NCBI GenBank assembly: GCA_947177885.1
Contig: CAMWWF010000106.1
Coordinates: 1-8,753 of the forward strand
Direction: 5' to 3'
Origin: an uncultured Lachnospiraceae bacterium
GTDB lineage: Bacteria; Bacillota_A; Clostridia; Lachnospirales; Lachnospiraceae
DNA: 8,753 nucleotides
Made by a program: the position numbers and the translations under genes. Numbering within the stretch: the stretch's first letter is position 1; every line of letters starts with the position of its first letter. The notes beneath the pieces are model-generated. The model was not told where the DNA came from, did no database searches, and saw nothing but the letters and a program-made list of their open reading frames with translations. Positions 2,974 through 8,753 of the stretch are shown in pieces.

Positions 2974-3240
2974 ATGAAAAAAGGAGTACGTTATCAGATG
3001 CGCAAAGCCGCAGGACTGTATTGGCTGATCGATATGGAGCAGAGCGGTTCGGACTGGCGGGAACCCGTGGCGGTCAATGAGAGCGGCGCATTTATTTGGG
3101 AACGATATCAGTGTCTGAGATCGGAAATCGCAGTGGCGGAAGAACTGAACAGGGAGAGAGGGGTTCCTGTACAGGAGGCGCTGACAGATATCAGGCATTT
3201 TTTGCAGCAGCTTGAGGAACAGGGAATAGTTCTGCAATAA
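2974..3240 (+). CDS. PqqD-like protein
   Basis: An 88-aa protein matches the PqqD fold (winged helix, peptide-binding chaperone family). It has a first strand with GLYWLID (14-20), then the hallmark VNESGAFIW (34-42, family pattern 'lNetga.iW'), a helix with SEIAVAEELNRE, and a last helix DIRHFLQQLEEQGIV. Known PqqD domains bind precursor peptides for radical-SAM enzymes, but stand-alone PqqD-like proteins also occur in polysaccharide loci. No radical-SAM gene or precursor peptide is visible nearby. The ATG at 2974 is preceded by GGGAGA with 4 nt spacing, and gives the family's usual length; an in-frame ATG at 2782 with a better site would add 64 residues. The PelD-like gene follows 22 nt downstream, so the two are likely cotranscribed. 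Confidence 0.8.
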   Translation: MKKGVRYQMRKAAGLYWLIDMEQSGSDWREPVAVNESGAFIWERYQCLRSEIAVAEELNRERGVPVQEALTDIRHFLQQLEEQGIVLQ

Positions 3241-3262: not shown

Positions 3263-5533
3263 ATGGACGTTTTACTGGTGGGCAGCACAAGTAATCTGAT
3301 GCAAAAGCTGGTTGATAAACTGGATAAGGAAAAACACAGGATTTTTGTGCTGACCGAGGAGGGAAAGGAAGTCCTCAGCTACCGCAGAGCCTTTGAGACG
3401 TACCGCTTCAGCTATAATAATGCCTGTATCAGAGAAGTATTTAACAGTGTGAAACCGGACGTCACCATTTTTCTGGGTGCGTATGACTGGAATTTTAACT
3501 GGGAGGGCGGACAGAATACCTCCATTGATTATTCTTCGGCAATTCTGAACATGCTGATGGCCTTTGCCGCCCAGCGGAAGGGTAAATTCATTTATCTGTC
3601 TTCTGATGAAGTGTTCGATGGAATCCGCATTCATAAAAATAATGAAATTTTAAACCAGACAGATCAAAATCCCAAGGCACAGGCTATAGCCATGGGGGAG
3701 AAGATGTGTCTGGACTACAGCCACATGGTGGACGGGAAAATAATTGTGCTGCGTCTGGACCACCTTTACGGTATTCCTACCCGCCGGGAGGAGCTTGGCA
3801 ATATCTGTGCGAAAATGTGCATGGAAGCCATTGATACGGGTGAGATCACGATAGACGGCGACAGGGGTATCTATGTGGAAGAGGCGGAAACTGCGGTGGA
3901 AACCATCAACCGATCACATTTTACAATAGATGGGGAAAAGCAGTTTTCACCCGTCTATCTGCCCGATGCCGTGGAGGATATCTATCAGGTGGCTGTGGCG
4001 GAGGAATGCCGACACTCGGTTTATCAGGTGTCAGGCAGTACGGCGATATCTCAGGCAGAGATTGCCAGGATGATACAGCAGAATCTGAGGAAAAAAACGG
4101 ATGAAAATGTCGCAACCATAGTTGATGCACCGGAAAAGGGGATAAACAGTGTTATTTTGTCGGGTTTTGATTTCATGGAGGAGTTCAGACTTCGGAACTT
4201 CAACCCGCCGGCTAAGGCAATCCCCAAACTTACCGAATACCTGCAGAAGAACGCATCAAGGTTTTCCAGGCGCTCGGATGTAGACGAAAGTCTTGCGCAA
4301 AAGGTGAAAAACGGCTTCAGGGAAGTGGTGAGAACACTGGTTCCCTTTGCGGAAAACATGATTCTGTTCATTCCGTTTTTTATGTTGAACAACAGAGCCG
4401 TGGGGAGCCGGTATTTTGCGCATCTCGACTTTTATCTGCTGTATGTATTGCTTTTTGCCATCGTATATGGACAGCAGCAGGCAATCTTTTCCAGTCTGCT
4501 GGCGATCGCAGGCTATTGTTTCCGGCAGATGTATCAGAGAAGCGGGTTTGATGTAATGCTTGATTACAACACATATGTCTGGATGGCACAGCTCCTGATC
4601 CTGGGACTTGTGGTGGGATATATGAGGGACCAGCTGAAATCCATTCGGGAGGAGAACACGGAGGAAGTATGTTTTCTCATGAAGCAGCTGGCCGATCTGT
4701 CAGATATCAACAGCAGTAATGTGAGAGTGAAGGATGTTCTGTCGGATCATTTGCTGAATCAGAATGACAGTATGGGTAAGATCTATGAGATCACTTCCGA
4801 ACTGGGCAGTTATCAGCCGGCGGAGGTATTGTTTTACGCGGCGGAGGTGCTTTCCAAGATCATGCGCAGCAAGGATGTGGCCATCTATTCGGTGGCAAAC
4901 CGTTCCTATGCGAGACTGTTTTCGGCCACATCAGGCAGGGCGCGGATCTTGGGGAATTCCGTTAATTACTCAGAGATGACGGAAATGTATGAGGCCATCA
5001 GTGCGCACAGGGTCTATATCAACAAGAATATGAATGAGAGTTATCCTCTGATGGCCAGCGCCATTTACGAGGGTGATGAGATGCAGATGATATTGATGGT
5101 ATGGGATATCCCCTGGGAGCGAATGACGCTGGGGCAGGCGGATATGCTGGCCATCACCCGATATCTGATCCAGGACGCTGTCCTGAGGGCAAACCGTTAT
5201 ATGGCGGCGCTGGAGCAGCAGCGATATATTCAGGGAACGCATATACTGGAGAAGGAGGCTTTTGAAGAACTGGTATCCGCATTCATGCGCGCAAGGAGCA
5301 GGAATCTGACCACATGTGCATTGCTGAATCTCGATACCGGAGAATTGTCTCAGGAGGAAGTGGATGCGAAGCTGAGCAAGCTGGTAAGACAGACAGATTA
5401 TCTCGGACAGGATGCGAAGGGCAGACTGCATGTATTATTGGCAAATACAGATGTGGCGGGAGCTAATTTTGTGCAGAAGAGGTTTGAGGATGCCGGTCTG
5501 GGCTGTCAGGTTGAGGAGGCATTGGCGGTATGA
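3263..5533 (+). CDS. pelD: SDR-PelD fusion, c-di-GMP receptor of a Pel-type locus
   Basis: A 756-aa inner-membrane protein. Residues 1 to about 325 form an extended-SDR domain (RmlD/epimerase type): Rossmann start VLLVGSTSN, YLSSDEVFDG (111-120), LRLDHLYG (163-170). Four membrane helices follow (about 356-375, 390-403, 406-424, 438-454), then a helical connector, a GAF domain (about 517-645) and a GGDEF-like domain (about 660-756). The order 4 TM-GAF-degenerate GGDEF is that of PelD, which binds c-di-GMP and activates Pel exopolysaccharide synthesis. The I-site R709-Q-T-D712 is intact, while the position of GGDEF reads A718-K-G-R-L722, so it should bind but not make c-di-GMP. The SDR part lacks the catalytic Tyr (A141 at that position) and the full glycine motif, so it is probably not a normal oxidoreductase. 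Translation start: GGAG (3249-3252) lies 10 nt before the ATG. Its stop overlaps the next gene by 4 nt (ATGA). Confidence 0.85.
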   Translation: MDVLLVGSTSNLMQKLVDKLDKEKHRIFVLTEEGKEVLSYRRAFETYRFSYNNACIREVFNSVKPDVTIFLGAYDWNFNWEGGQNTSIDYSSAILNMLMAFAAQRKGKFIYLSSDEVFDGIRIHKNNEILNQTDQNPKAQAIAMGEKMCLDYSHMVDGKIIVLRLDHLYGIPTRREELGNICAKMCMEAIDTGEITIDGDRGIYVEEAETAVETINRSHFTIDGEKQFSPVYLPDAVEDIYQVAVAEECRHSVYQVSGSTAISQAEIARMIQQNLRKKTDENVATIVDAPEKGINSVILSGFDFMEEFRLRNFNPPAKAIPKLTEYLQKNASRFSRRSDVDESLAQKVKNGFREVVRTLVPFAENMILFIPFFMLNNRAVGSRYFAHLDFYLLYVLLFAIVYGQQQAIFSSLLAIAGYCFRQMYQRSGFDVMLDYNTYVWMAQLLILGLVVGYMRDQLKSIREENTEEVCFLMKQLADLSDINSSNVRVKDVLSDHLLNQNDSMGKIYEITSELGSYQPAEVLFYAAEVLSKIMRSKDVAIYSVANRSYARLFSATSGRARILGNSVNYSEMTEMYEAISAHRVYINKNMNESYPLMASAIYEGDEMQMILMVWDIPWERMTLGQADMLAITRYLIQDAVLRANRYMAALEQQRYIQGTHILEKEAFEELVSAFMRARSRNLTTCALLNLDTGELSQEEVDAKLSKLVRQTDYLGQDAKGRLHVLLANTDVAGANFVQKRFEDAGLGCQVEEALAV

Positions 5534-6678
5534 CGACTGCGGAGAAGGTTTTTATGGTGATCCTGCTGGTCAATACGCTGATCGCCGTGGCATATTTTGT
5601 CTGGGGGTGCCTTATACAGACCGTACGGGCGGAAGGACAGCCTTTAGGGGAGACGAAGGCGGAAGATGAAAAGACCGGAAAAGCAAAGACCCTAAAAACA
5701 GGAAAAGCAAAATCTGAGGAAACAAAGCCGGAGAAAGTGAAATCCGGGGAGCCTGAGTCCGGAGAGGCAAAGTCTGAGGGATCCAAGAGCGACGAGGTCA
5801 AAGCATGGGAAGCGGAAGAAGAGGATGTGGAGGAAGATCTGCCGGAGTGGAGGATGCTCAGTAAAACGGGGTATTTTTTTAAAGCACTGGTCATGTTGCT
5901 GTGTCCGGTGGTAGGCGTGCTGTTCTTTCTGACCACCCTGCTGATGTACGTATTGTTCTTCCGGACAACGGCTGACCTGACGGACGTCATTTTCGGCAAG
6001 GAGAAAGTGGTTGCCCGCAGGAAGGCTGATGAAGAGAGTGAGCGCAACAGGGTACCCATAGAGGAGGCATTGGCGGTGGCGGACAAGGAGAGCCTGCGAT
6101 CCCTGGTCATGGACGTGGTAAAGGGCGACATCAGGAAATCCCTTGCCACCATTTCTCTGGCGCTTAACAGTGAGGATACGGAGACTTCCCATTATGCGGC
6201 TTCCGTGCTGAGAGATGCCCTGAATGATTTCCGTCAGGAGTCTCAGGAGCTGTATAATGCGTTTCATAAGGGGGACGAGGGAGCCGCAGATTATGCATGT
6301 ATGATGATCGAGTATATGAATGAGGTCCTGTGTCAGGAGGTGTTTCCCGATATAGAGCAGCGCAGCTATGTGGAGATGGTGGAGGAAGCGTGTACATGGC
6401 TGTATAAGAGCGAGGAGCATCGATATCGTCTGCACTGTGAATATATAGAATGGATGGCCGCCCTGCTGTTGCGCCTGAAGGAATATGAGCGGATGGAAAT
6501 ATGGTGCAATCGCTGTATGGAAATATATCCCGAGGAACTGACAAGCTATACGATCCCGCTCAAACTGTATTTCAGTATTCAGGATAAGGAGAAATTCTTT
6601 GCCGCTATGGACAGATTAAAGAAATCTGATGTGGTGATCGACAGGGATACATTGGATCTGATCAGAGTGTTCAGCTGA
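5530..6678 (+). CDS. pelE: PelE-like membrane protein
   Basis: A 382-aa protein that starts inside the PelD-like gene (ATGA overlap), with GAGGAGG 10 nt upstream, so the two are translationally coupled. It has a membrane helix at about 8-28, a long Lys/Glu/Ser-rich linker (about 33-112) with near-repeats of GKAKS/SGEAKSE type, and a hydrophobic stretch at about 116-146 (one long or two short helices). A C-terminal all-helical region (about 175-382) follows, with TPR-like pairs such as EWMAALLLRLKEYERMEIWC and the following MEIYPEELTSYTIPLKLYF. PelE of known Pel systems has the same plan of membrane helices plus TPR-type repeats and works next to PelD at the membrane, presumably as a scaffold for the synthase. 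The assignment rests on plan and position, not on a sequence match I could check. The expanded charged linker is unusual. Confidence 0.7.
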   Translation: MTTAEKVFMVILLVNTLIAVAYFVWGCLIQTVRAEGQPLGETKAEDEKTGKAKTLKTGKAKSEETKPEKVKSGEPESGEAKSEGSKSDEVKAWEAEEEDVEEDLPEWRMLSKTGYFFKALVMLLCPVVGVLFFLTTLLMYVLFFRTTADLTDVIFGKEKVVARRKADEESERNRVPIEEALAVADKESLRSLVMDVVKGDIRKSLATISLALNSEDTETSHYAASVLRDALNDFRQESQELYNAFHKGDEGAADYACMMIEYMNEVLCQEVFPDIEQRSYVEMVEEACTWLYKSEEHRYRLHCEYIEWMAALLLRLKEYERMEIWCNRCMEIYPEELTSYTIPLKLYFSIQDKEKFFAAMDRLKKSDVVIDRDTLDLIRVFS

Positions 6679-6717
6679 TATGTGGTGGAAGGGTTAGCGA
6701 AGGAGACATGGAAAGCA

Positions 6718-8753
6718 ATGTCAATGCAGATGTTGACAATCTTACAATTTATAGCTGTCCTGGCAGCGTATCTGGGGATGACAGTGCTTTTACCGGCCTT
6801 CGTGTTTTACAGGAAGGTCAGTGGGGAGAGATTCTGCGTCCGTTTTATGATTTATCTGGTGATCGGAAATGTTTATCTGATGAATATGGTGATGGTATTA
6901 CAGCTTCTCCATATCTCAAACAGGTTTACGCTGGCGCTGGGCACGGTATTGCCGGTGCTCTGGGCTGTAGCTAGGGTTCATAATGTCACCATCAAAGACG
7001 GAATATTGGGGGCGGCAAGAGCAGTAAACAGCTTCCTGACGGGCACCATGGGCGGCCGTCTCCTGTTCAGTAAGATATTGCGATTTACGGGAAAGTGCAT
7101 GAAGACGGGGGTGTCACGTCTGTTCCGGAGTATTCGGAAGAACTTTTTTGACTGGGTGCTCACTGTGGGATTTATTGTGGCGATATTATGGCTGTACGGA
7201 TGTAATCTGGTCTGGAATATGGGGTACTGTACTTCGGATATACCGGTGCACAATTACTGGATCAACGGCATGGACAGAAATGAAATGTTTATCGCGGGAG
7301 TGTATCCTCACGGCTTTCACAGTATGATCTATTATCTTCATAAGATGTTTGGATTTTACACTTTTGTGCTGCTGCGTGTTTTCTGTCTGGTACAGAATAT
7401 CATCATACATATGGTGCTGCTGGCATTTTTAAAAGCGTGCTGCAGAATGAAATATTCACCTTATGTTGCCATGGTTCTGTATGTTCTTGCCAATATCTGG
7501 CACGAGAACACTTATACGAGATATTTCAGCTCTCTCCCCCAGGAATTCGGCATGATATTTATATTGCCGTCGATTTATTTTCTGACAGCATTTTTTGAAG
7601 ACAGACGCCGTGAGGACGGAGCGAAGGGGTGGAAGTTACACAGCAGCCGTTATCTGTTGTTTTTCGCTTTGAGTTTCAGCGCCACATTGGCGGCACATTT
7701 TTATAATACCATGGCAGCCGGTCTGTTCTGCGTGGGAGTTGCCATAGGGTATGCGGGGATCCTGTTCCGAAAGGAATATTTTGGAAGGGTAATGGCAGCC
7801 GGTATATTGAGTGTTGTGCTTGCCGTGTTGCCGATGGTGATCGCGGTGGCAACAGGTACGCCCCTGGAAGGTTCTCTTCGATGGGGCATGAGCATTATCA
7901 AGGGAACGACGGATTCAGGGCAGACGACCCAGACGGTGCAGGACAGCGATCAGGGATCTTCCGCCGATGTGAGTCAGAGTTCTTCTGACGGTGCGACAGT
8001 AACCATAATGAACGGAGATACGCAGATATCATCTGACGGTACATCTCTGCCACCGGAAGCTCCGCCGCCGAAAACCAAAATTCCGTTGGGAGTACGGTTG
8101 AAGACATGGATCTCTCAAAAGTGGAACAGTGTCCTGTTCGTATTGTCGACCATACGGAGCGTGGTACACATATATGTATTGGATAAAGTCTCGCTGGAAA
8201 CGGTAAAGATCATGTTGTTTGGCACAGTGCTGCCGGGGATTCTGGGGCTGGTCTGTCTTTTGGAGAAAAAGAACCGATTGTATGGCTGTACCCTGTTATC
8301 GGTGTTTTTCTGTCAGGTGTTTCTGTATGTGATGATCATAGCATGGGAACTCGGCATTCCCGCACTGATGGATAAAAACAGGTGCAGTATTTATCTTTCT
8401 TATATCTTAGCGGTATCATTGGCCTTTGCGGCGGATGCCATAGTGAGTCTGTTCATAGAACGGATCACCAGACGACCCTTTGCAAATATCATTTCCCTGA
8501 GCGGAGTTGCGATAATGATCTTTGTTCTGACTCTGGGGAAAATGTACAAAACGCCTGTCAATTTCGAGGCGCTGGAGTGTAATGACGCGATCACTTGTCT
8601 GACAAATATATTGTGGGATAACCCGCGCTTTCAGTTTACGGTTTGTTCTGCCAACGACGAGCTGCGTATGGTAGAAGGATACGGCTACCATTATGAAACC
8701 ATAACTTTTTTGCAGCAGATGGAGGGGGAACGACAGGAGGGATATCTGACGAT
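6718..8753 (+). CDS. Large multi-spanning GT-C-like membrane protein, cut by window end
   Basis: The frame runs open from 6718 to the right edge (678 codons) and has no stop in the window. I count about 13-14 membrane helices, for example MLTILQFIAVLAAYLGMTV, FDWVLTVGFIVAILWLYG and LFGTVLPGILGLVCLL. The loop after the fourth helix contains D174-I-P-V-H178 and V-Y-P197-H-G-F-H201. This layout resembles GT-C-fold membrane glycosyltransferases (DUF6541-like), which carry acidic/His loop motifs there and use lipid-linked sugars; this is inference. A Ser/Thr/Asp/Gln-rich loop lies at about 396-455. From about residue 620 on a non-membrane domain begins. The start is uncertain: AGGAG (6701-6705) is 12 nt before the ATG at 6718, while an ATG at 6708 is in another frame and GTG codons at 6682/6685 lack a site. 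It follows the PelE-like gene by 39 nt and should share its transcript. Confidence 0.7.
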   Translation, partial: MSMQMLTILQFIAVLAAYLGMTVLLPAFVFYRKVSGERFCVRFMIYLVIGNVYLMNMVMVLQLLHISNRFTLALGTVLPVLWAVARVHNVTIKDGILGAARAVNSFLTGTMGGRLLFSKILRFTGKCMKTGVSRLFRSIRKNFFDWVLTVGFIVAILWLYGCNLVWNMGYCTSDIPVHNYWINGMDRNEMFIAGVYPHGFHSMIYYLHKMFGFYTFVLLRVFCLVQNIIIHMVLLAFLKACCRMKYSPYVAMVLYVLANIWHENTYTRYFSSLPQEFGMIFILPSIYFLTAFFEDRRREDGAKGWKLHSSRYLLFFALSFSATLAAHFYNTMAAGLFCVGVAIGYAGILFRKEYFGRVMAAGILSVVLAVLPMVIAVATGTPLEGSLRWGMSIIKGTTDSGQTTQTVQDSDQGSSADVSQSSSDGATVTIMNGDTQISSDGTSLPPEAPPPKTKIPLGVRLKTWISQKWNSVLFVLSTIRSVVHIYVLDKVSLETVKIMLFGTVLPGILGLVCLLEKKNRLYGCTLLSVFFCQVFLYVMIIAWELGIPALMDKNRCSIYLSYILAVSLAFAADAIVSLFIERITRRPFANIISLSGVAIMIFVLTLGKMYKTPVNFEALECNDAITCLTNILWDNPRFQFTVCSANDELRMVEGYGYHYETITFLQQMEGERQEGYLT

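Follow-up and report, generated by a model that had tools for sequence, protein, structure and literature searches.

A PelD-type c-di-GMP receptor with a degenerate SDR domain, encoded beside a PqqD-family gene in a Lachnospiraceae bacterium

Gene content of the locus

The window (the whole stretch of 8,753 nucleotides that was analysed) contains pelD and pelE, followed by an incomplete extra membrane gene, and ends before pelADA, pelF and pelG. A small gene of the PqqD family precedes pelD, with its stop 22 bp before the pelD start. The features are as follows, with residue numbers referring to PelD.

2974..3240, + strand: small gene of the PqqD family, 88 aa, with its start placed according to the conserved core
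3263..5533, + strand: pelD, 756 aa, encoding a degenerate SDR domain, a membrane part of four predicted helices, a GAF domain and a degenerate GGDEF domain
3263..4267, + strand: pseudo-SDR domain of extended SDR fold, Pfam RmlD_sub_bind/Epimerase, residues 1–335 (Pfam, model)
3281..3301, + strand: GSTSNLM replacing the SDR motif GxxGxxG, residues 7–13 (alignment of 81)
3674..3688, + strand: KAQAI replacing the catalytic YxxxK, residues 138–142 (alignment of 81)
4337..4642, + strand: membrane part with four predicted helices, residues 359–460 (structure model at low confidence; hydropathy)
4814..5212, + strand: GAF domain, residues 518–650 (boundaries from the model)
5252..5518, + strand: degenerate GGDEF domain, residues 664–752, AKGRL replacing GGDEF (model, Foldseek)
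5387..5398, + strand: I-site R709-Q-T-D712 (alignment, comparison with B. cereus PelD)
5480..5482, + strand: R740, counterpart of B. cereus R395 and P. aeruginosa R402 (alignment)
5530..6678, + strand: pelE, 382 aa, overlapping pelD by 4 bp
6682..8751, + strand: large multi-pass membrane protein, 690 aa within the window, continuing past its end

Upstream of these genes lies an Amidohydrolase_2 gene (1752–2675, + strand; Pfam), found at this place in only 6 of 81 loci (the window and five close relatives), some loci having little upstream DNA. It is separated from the PqqD-family gene by a terminator-like inverted repeat (2710–2768) with 24-nt arms, 92% complementary, and an 11-nt loop. An AraC-type DNA-binding ORF (977–1381, − strand) is overlapped by another minus-strand ORF (684–1022), and the ORFs at 684–1381 may represent a split or damaged regulator gene.

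At the Pfam cut-offs, PelD matches RmlD_sub_bind and Epimerase only, within residues 1–201 (E 1.1e-11 and 6.8e-10). With this match and an extended SDR fold, the fusion of an SDR domain ahead of PelD, proposed in the first-pass annotation, is confirmed. Searching the PDB with full-length PelD (phmmer) gave chance matches only. With a profile of the C-terminal half, nothing beyond a weak match to a diguanylate cyclase emerged (E 0.45, in the same register), so the folds had to be modelled.

Comparison sets

A protein search with PelD returned 1674 homologues, of which 120 were listed. Among the matches listed, the homologues are 50–94% identical to PelD and 714–781 aa long (one is 879 aa), and the few named by source come from Lachnospiraceae, Blautia or Roseburia. 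A scan of genome contigs gave 182 relatives; the best 80 of these 182, mostly from Lachnospiraceae MAGs, and the window PelD make up the 81-sequence set to which all counts out of 81 refer. For more distant sequences, 398 genomes were drawn from the phylum of the genome of one relative (L027). Seventeen matched: eleven have PelDs, L027's own included, and six (L092–L097), in which the match spans the GGDEF part only, were excluded from PelD counts. One PelD split by a frame change (L088/L098) was excluded from residue counts and assessed by eye.

The receptor half of PelD

Ahead of the GAF domain, the model predicts helices at residues 344–381, 390–402, 404–422 and 435–480 with low pLDDT, and the hydropathy of the membrane part has four peaks, one of which exceeds 1.6. 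In the membrane part, 50% of columns are at least 95% identical across the 81 sequences (best 80 of 182 relatives plus the window). The modelled C-terminal half contains a GAF fold followed by a degenerate GGDEF fold. Its best Foldseek match is the PelD receptor of P. aeruginosa (PDB IDs: 4dn0, 4dmz, 4etz and 4etx), which shares the GAF domain and the degenerate GGDEF domain with an I-site, and diguanylate cyclases are among the next matches. In a VIA-align comparison of the same model, GAF domains filled the match list and the GGDEF part was barely tested. P. aeruginosa PelD differs from the window PelD in having no SDR domain and in belonging to a Gram-negative operon with outer-membrane export.

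The first-pass annotation had described this half as PelD with a complete I-site and no GGDEF motif, and had named structure prediction of the GAF and GGDEF parts as a check; the modelled folds, with PelD as best match, and the residues below bear the description out. R709, D712 and R740 are invariant in 81/81 sequences (best 80 of 182 relatives plus the window) and in all 54 rows of a second, overlapping set that adds nine distant PelDs (20–28% identity). Among the matches listed plus the window (121 sequences), R709 is present in 120 and both D712 and R740 in 121. The spacing from R709 to R740 is 31 residues, compared with 32 in B. cereus and 35 in P. aeruginosa. The GGDEF signature is absent, with AKGRL at residues 718–722, a stretch that varies among the 81 sequences. 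The equivalent residues are R363, D366 and R395 in B. cereus PelD, each needed for c-di-GMP binding and biofilm, and R367, D370 and R402 in P. aeruginosa (PMC7112168).

We consider it nearly certain that the C-terminal half is the c-di-GMP receptor for Pel. That the GGDEF-like domain is instead a diguanylate cyclase would agree with its fold, its I-site and the cyclases among the next Foldseek matches, but AKGRL stands in place of the signature, the stretch is unconserved in the 81 sequences and the best structural match is a PelD receptor, and we give this alternative scarcely any credence. GGDEF proteins occur in all 15 of the relatives' genomes tested (4–25 matches each), so c-di-GMP is likely made in these bacteria. 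No c-di-GMP riboswitch reached the Rfam gathering scores upstream in the window or in five relatives. By analogy with the characterised receptors, Pel is predicted, very probably correctly, to be under c-di-GMP control through PelD.

Loss of SDR motifs

The motifs of active extended SDRs and UDP-glucose 4-epimerases (GxxGxxG and YxxxK) are absent from the window PelD. We compared the 81 PelDs with eight reference SDRs, namely five GalE proteins encoded in the genomes of relatives, two standalone epimerases, and the SDR-PelD L082, whose motifs are intact. The catalytic tyrosine, present in 8/8 references, occurs in none of the 81 PelDs (Lys in 37, Arg in 36, Glu in 3, Trp in 3 and Pro in 2), and the catalytic lysine, again found in 8/8 references, is always replaced by Leu, Ile, Val, Phe, Trp or Tyr. 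The third glycine of the NAD site is missing from 81/81 (Met, Ile, Thr, Val, Leu or Ala in 80, and one gap), and the NAD-site aspartate is replaced in 79/81 (Thr in 76, Ser in 3). Other positions are retained: Gly7 in 79/81, Gly10 in 52/81 (Ser10 in the window) and Ser or Thr at position 114 in 79/81. Tyr51 is present in 80/81, with one gap, at the position that maps to Ile59 of E. coli GalE, beside the adenine-side Asp58. The nucleotide-sugar recognition suggested in the first-pass annotation finds no support in these residues, since 81/81 sequences have lost the Tyr–Lys dyad and the third Gly, and Asp has changed to Thr or Ser in 79/81.

Seven of the ten distant PelDs with genomic context carry the SDR domain and three lack it. 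Among the seven, one has an intact dyad, five lack the dyad by alignment, and one, the split gene, lacks it by eye. L082 keeps GxxGxxG, Asp, Tyr and Lys. The more distant pseudo-SDRs L083–L086 have other substitutions at the motif positions, so one common ligand across the pseudo-SDR class is unlikely. A tree of 17 PelDs was too long-branched to tell single from repeated SDR decay.

Conservation and selection in the SDR domain

Pairwise dN/dS of the SDR domain was 0.052–0.089 between the window and six relatives and 0.034–0.129 in five other pairs, values that are approximate because dS was often above 1. On these sequence comparisons, the SDR domain is under purifying selection. Mean column conservation in PelD was 0.64 for the Rossmann half, 0.51 for the C-terminal half of the SDR domain, 0.59 for the GGDEF domain, 0.77 for the GAF domain and 0.85 for the membrane part.

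Within the Rossmann half, the 24 positions that we take to contact the cofactor, on the basis of E. coli GalE numbering, have a mean conservation of 0.774, compared with 0.619 at the other 146 positions (permutation p 0.001); they were transferred through an alignment of remote sequences and some are uncertain, for example one for Lys84. Outside strands, the contact positions remain higher (0.737 for 19 positions, versus 0.583 for 118; p 0.005). The strands themselves score 0.795, on a par with the cleft, whose conservation may therefore partly reflect the demands of the fold. The main cleft-side segments score 0.72–0.89, with segments 77–85 and 115–136 at only 0.50 and 0.45, and the helices expected at the SDR dimer face score 0.63 and 0.59. 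The cleft is rewritten as well as conserved: Lys/Arg takes the place of Tyr at position 138, Thr that of Asp at 31 and Met/Ile that of Gly at 13, and Tyr51 is near-invariant and Asp75 invariant.

The pel operon and the PqqD-family gene

Judged from the loci of relatives, the window pelD probably belongs to a Gram-positive Pel operon (pelDEADAFG). Of the 68 loci with 9.8 kb or more of downstream DNA, 66 show the order pelD-pelE-pelADA-pelF-pelG, the exceptions being L028 and L074, and pelF lies beside pelD in 10/10 distant loci. In one relative (L001), PelG scores 492 bits against Pfam PelG, and PelF matches DUF3492 and Glycos_transf_1. For the genome of the window, pelADA, pelF, pelG and the c-di-GMP enzymes are presumed from these relatives. 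The large membrane gene lies between pelE and pelADA in 57/74 loci (in L001 at 13762–16338, 858 aa), is missing from 17/74 and was not found in 10/10 distant pel loci. DUF6541 matches 1 of 24 members of this protein, two other Pfam families match one member each, and comparison with the PDB gave no credible match; it is possibly a membrane glycosyltransferase. In two distant loci, standalone epimerases with intact motifs lie directly upstream of the SDR-PelD gene (L104, 3423–4466; L105, 11289–12335). The SDR-PelD gene of L105 (12308–14498; L088/L098) is split into two overlapping frames, through an assembly error or as a broken gene.

In 61 of 73 loci the PqqD-family gene immediately precedes pelD, at a median gap of about 20 bp; it is absent from that place in 12/73 and was not found in 10/10 distant pel loci. 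All 23 members aligned, of the 61, match PF05402 and share invariant Y, R, AAG, WL, D, Q, N, G, D and F positions. The best solved relatives of this protein are lasso-peptide PqqD-type proteins, and PqqD matches number only 1–5 per genome in the 15 genomes tested.

Some relatives have a larger set of genes. Of the 57 loci with 5 kb or more of upstream DNA, 11 (L022, L023, L024, L027, L029, L031, L036, L049, L051, L062 and L076) have, within 5 kb upstream, both a PqqD-containing ORF of ~400 aa and, on the same strand as pelD, an S26-signal-peptidase-like gene; eight of the 11 also have an ABC exporter nearby. In L027, the ~400-aa ORF has a weak match, below the cut-off, to HprK-related kinase B (E 3e-4 over 42 residues); its S26-like gene matches signal peptidase weakly (E 2e-7, below the cut-off) and was assigned no Pfam family. 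Seven further genomes (L114–L120), chosen for a second PqqD match on the same contig (L121, the genome of L022, is not counted), have a kinase-like ORF 23–34 kb from the small PqqD match. The window carries only the small PqqD gene of this set. The PqqD, kinase-like, S26-like and exporter genes may form a peptide-processing system. Our literature search found no paper combining PqqD with 'Pel polysaccharide', and PqqD does not occur in the text of PMC7112168.

Relation to described PelD proteins

SDR-linked PelD variants, which the first-pass annotation suspected might already be described, are indeed in print. Whitfield et al. 2020 (PMC7112168) report an apparently functional epimerase domain ahead of PelD in Brevibacillus and an altered, probably inactive SDR in streptococci, clostridia and actinobacteria. 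Like the window PelD, the degenerate proteins begin with an SDR whose cofactor and catalytic residues are altered, and continue with membrane, GAF and degenerate GGDEF parts (the last not in streptococci). They are encoded by pelD of a pelDEADAFG operon, as is probable for the window protein; in a comparison of architecture, no difference from the window PelD was found. The Brevibacillus-type PelD (PMC7112168) and L082 have the same domain order too, but L082 keeps the motif residues that the window PelD has lost. B. cereus ATCC 10987 PelD shares RxxD and the third Arg, binds c-di-GMP with a KD of 103 nM and requires these residues for biofilm, but, unlike the window PelD, has no SDR (PMC7112168).

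In Raju et al. 2025 (PMC12345266), PelD is divided into four classes, class IV being without GGDEF, and the function of the degenerate SDR is stated as unknown. The class IV PelD of S. intermedius has a degenerate SDR in front, as in the window PelD, but lacks the GGDEF domain and so has no c-di-GMP input. A literature search by titles found no further paper pointing to SDR-PelD fusions. The fusion as such has been known since 2020, and the window protein is a further example of the class with a degenerate SDR and a GGDEF domain. Less expected than the fusion is its context, with a PqqD-family gene directly upstream of pelD.

Role of the SDR domain

Our best overall explanation, which we regard as probable, is a Gram-positive PelD receptor with a non-catalytic pseudo-SDR as a second module. 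As in B. cereus and P. aeruginosa, c-di-GMP would bind R709, D712 and R740, PelD would change state via its GAF and membrane parts, and the PelDEFG complex would activate the polymerase PelF. With less certainty, the SDR domain would be a pseudoenzyme with no redox or epimerase chemistry, acting at the cytosolic face as an additional module for input or docking, without catalysis. We hold with good confidence that it serves as a non-catalytic module of some kind, and the pattern of residues suggests the rewritten but conserved cleft as its most likely route of action, a point on which our judgement is evenly balanced.

Extended SDRs dimerise, and the domain could be a pure protein scaffold, forming homodimers or pairing with an active UDP-sugar epimerase and so keeping precursor supply beside the Pel synthase. 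A GalE gene is present in 14/15 relatives' genomes, and intact-looking standalone epimerases directly upstream of the SDR-PelD gene in two of the six distant dyad-less loci (L104 and L105) fit such pairing. The dimer-face helices, however, are less conserved than the main cleft-side segments, though segments 77–85 and 115–136 are lower still, and no other SDR gene was found in the 80 close loci (up to 10 kb each side, often less; E 1e-5, L082-seeded profile), which leaves the scaffold somewhat unlikely. We think it quite improbable that the domain has kept its affinity for NAD or a UDP-sugar and acts as a non-catalytic reporter of precursor or redox state; the fold is intact and Gly7, Gly10 and Ser/Thr114 are retained to the extents given above, but the dyad is gone, the third Gly is replaced in 80/81, Thr or Ser stands for the NAD-site Asp in 79/81, and Tyr51 sits near the adenine side.

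The domain could instead be the decaying relic of a fusion that once carried an active epimerase, without a role today. In favour of this are the existence of an intact-motif SDR-PelD (L082), the published Brevibacillus SDR-PelDs that look active and the lower conservation of the SDR C-terminal half. The domain may also be dispensable, since S. thermophilus JIM8232 forms Pel-dependent biofilm with a PelD that lacks the SDR region. Against a remnant stand the dN/dS values far below 1 in close pairs and a Rossmann half as conserved as the GGDEF domain, and we judge it very improbable.

Within the preferred reading of a non-catalytic module, the former NAD/substrate cleft may have been rewritten for another ligand or a partner segment. 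PelD would then be a two-input switch for c-di-GMP and a second signal, possibly from the linked module of PqqD, HprK-related kinase-like and S26-peptidase-like proteins. We put this specific proposal forward as speculative and, taken whole, unlikely. Residues Y51, G72, D75, E146, R164, T31 and K/R138 are direct targets for mutagenesis and binding experiments on the role of the SDR domain. The PqqD-family gene beside pelD, with the kinase-like module in some relatives, could point to a so far overlooked input into how gut commensals produce Pel; if true, a repurposed sensor receiving a signal from the PqqD module would couple a peptide-processing system to Pel output.
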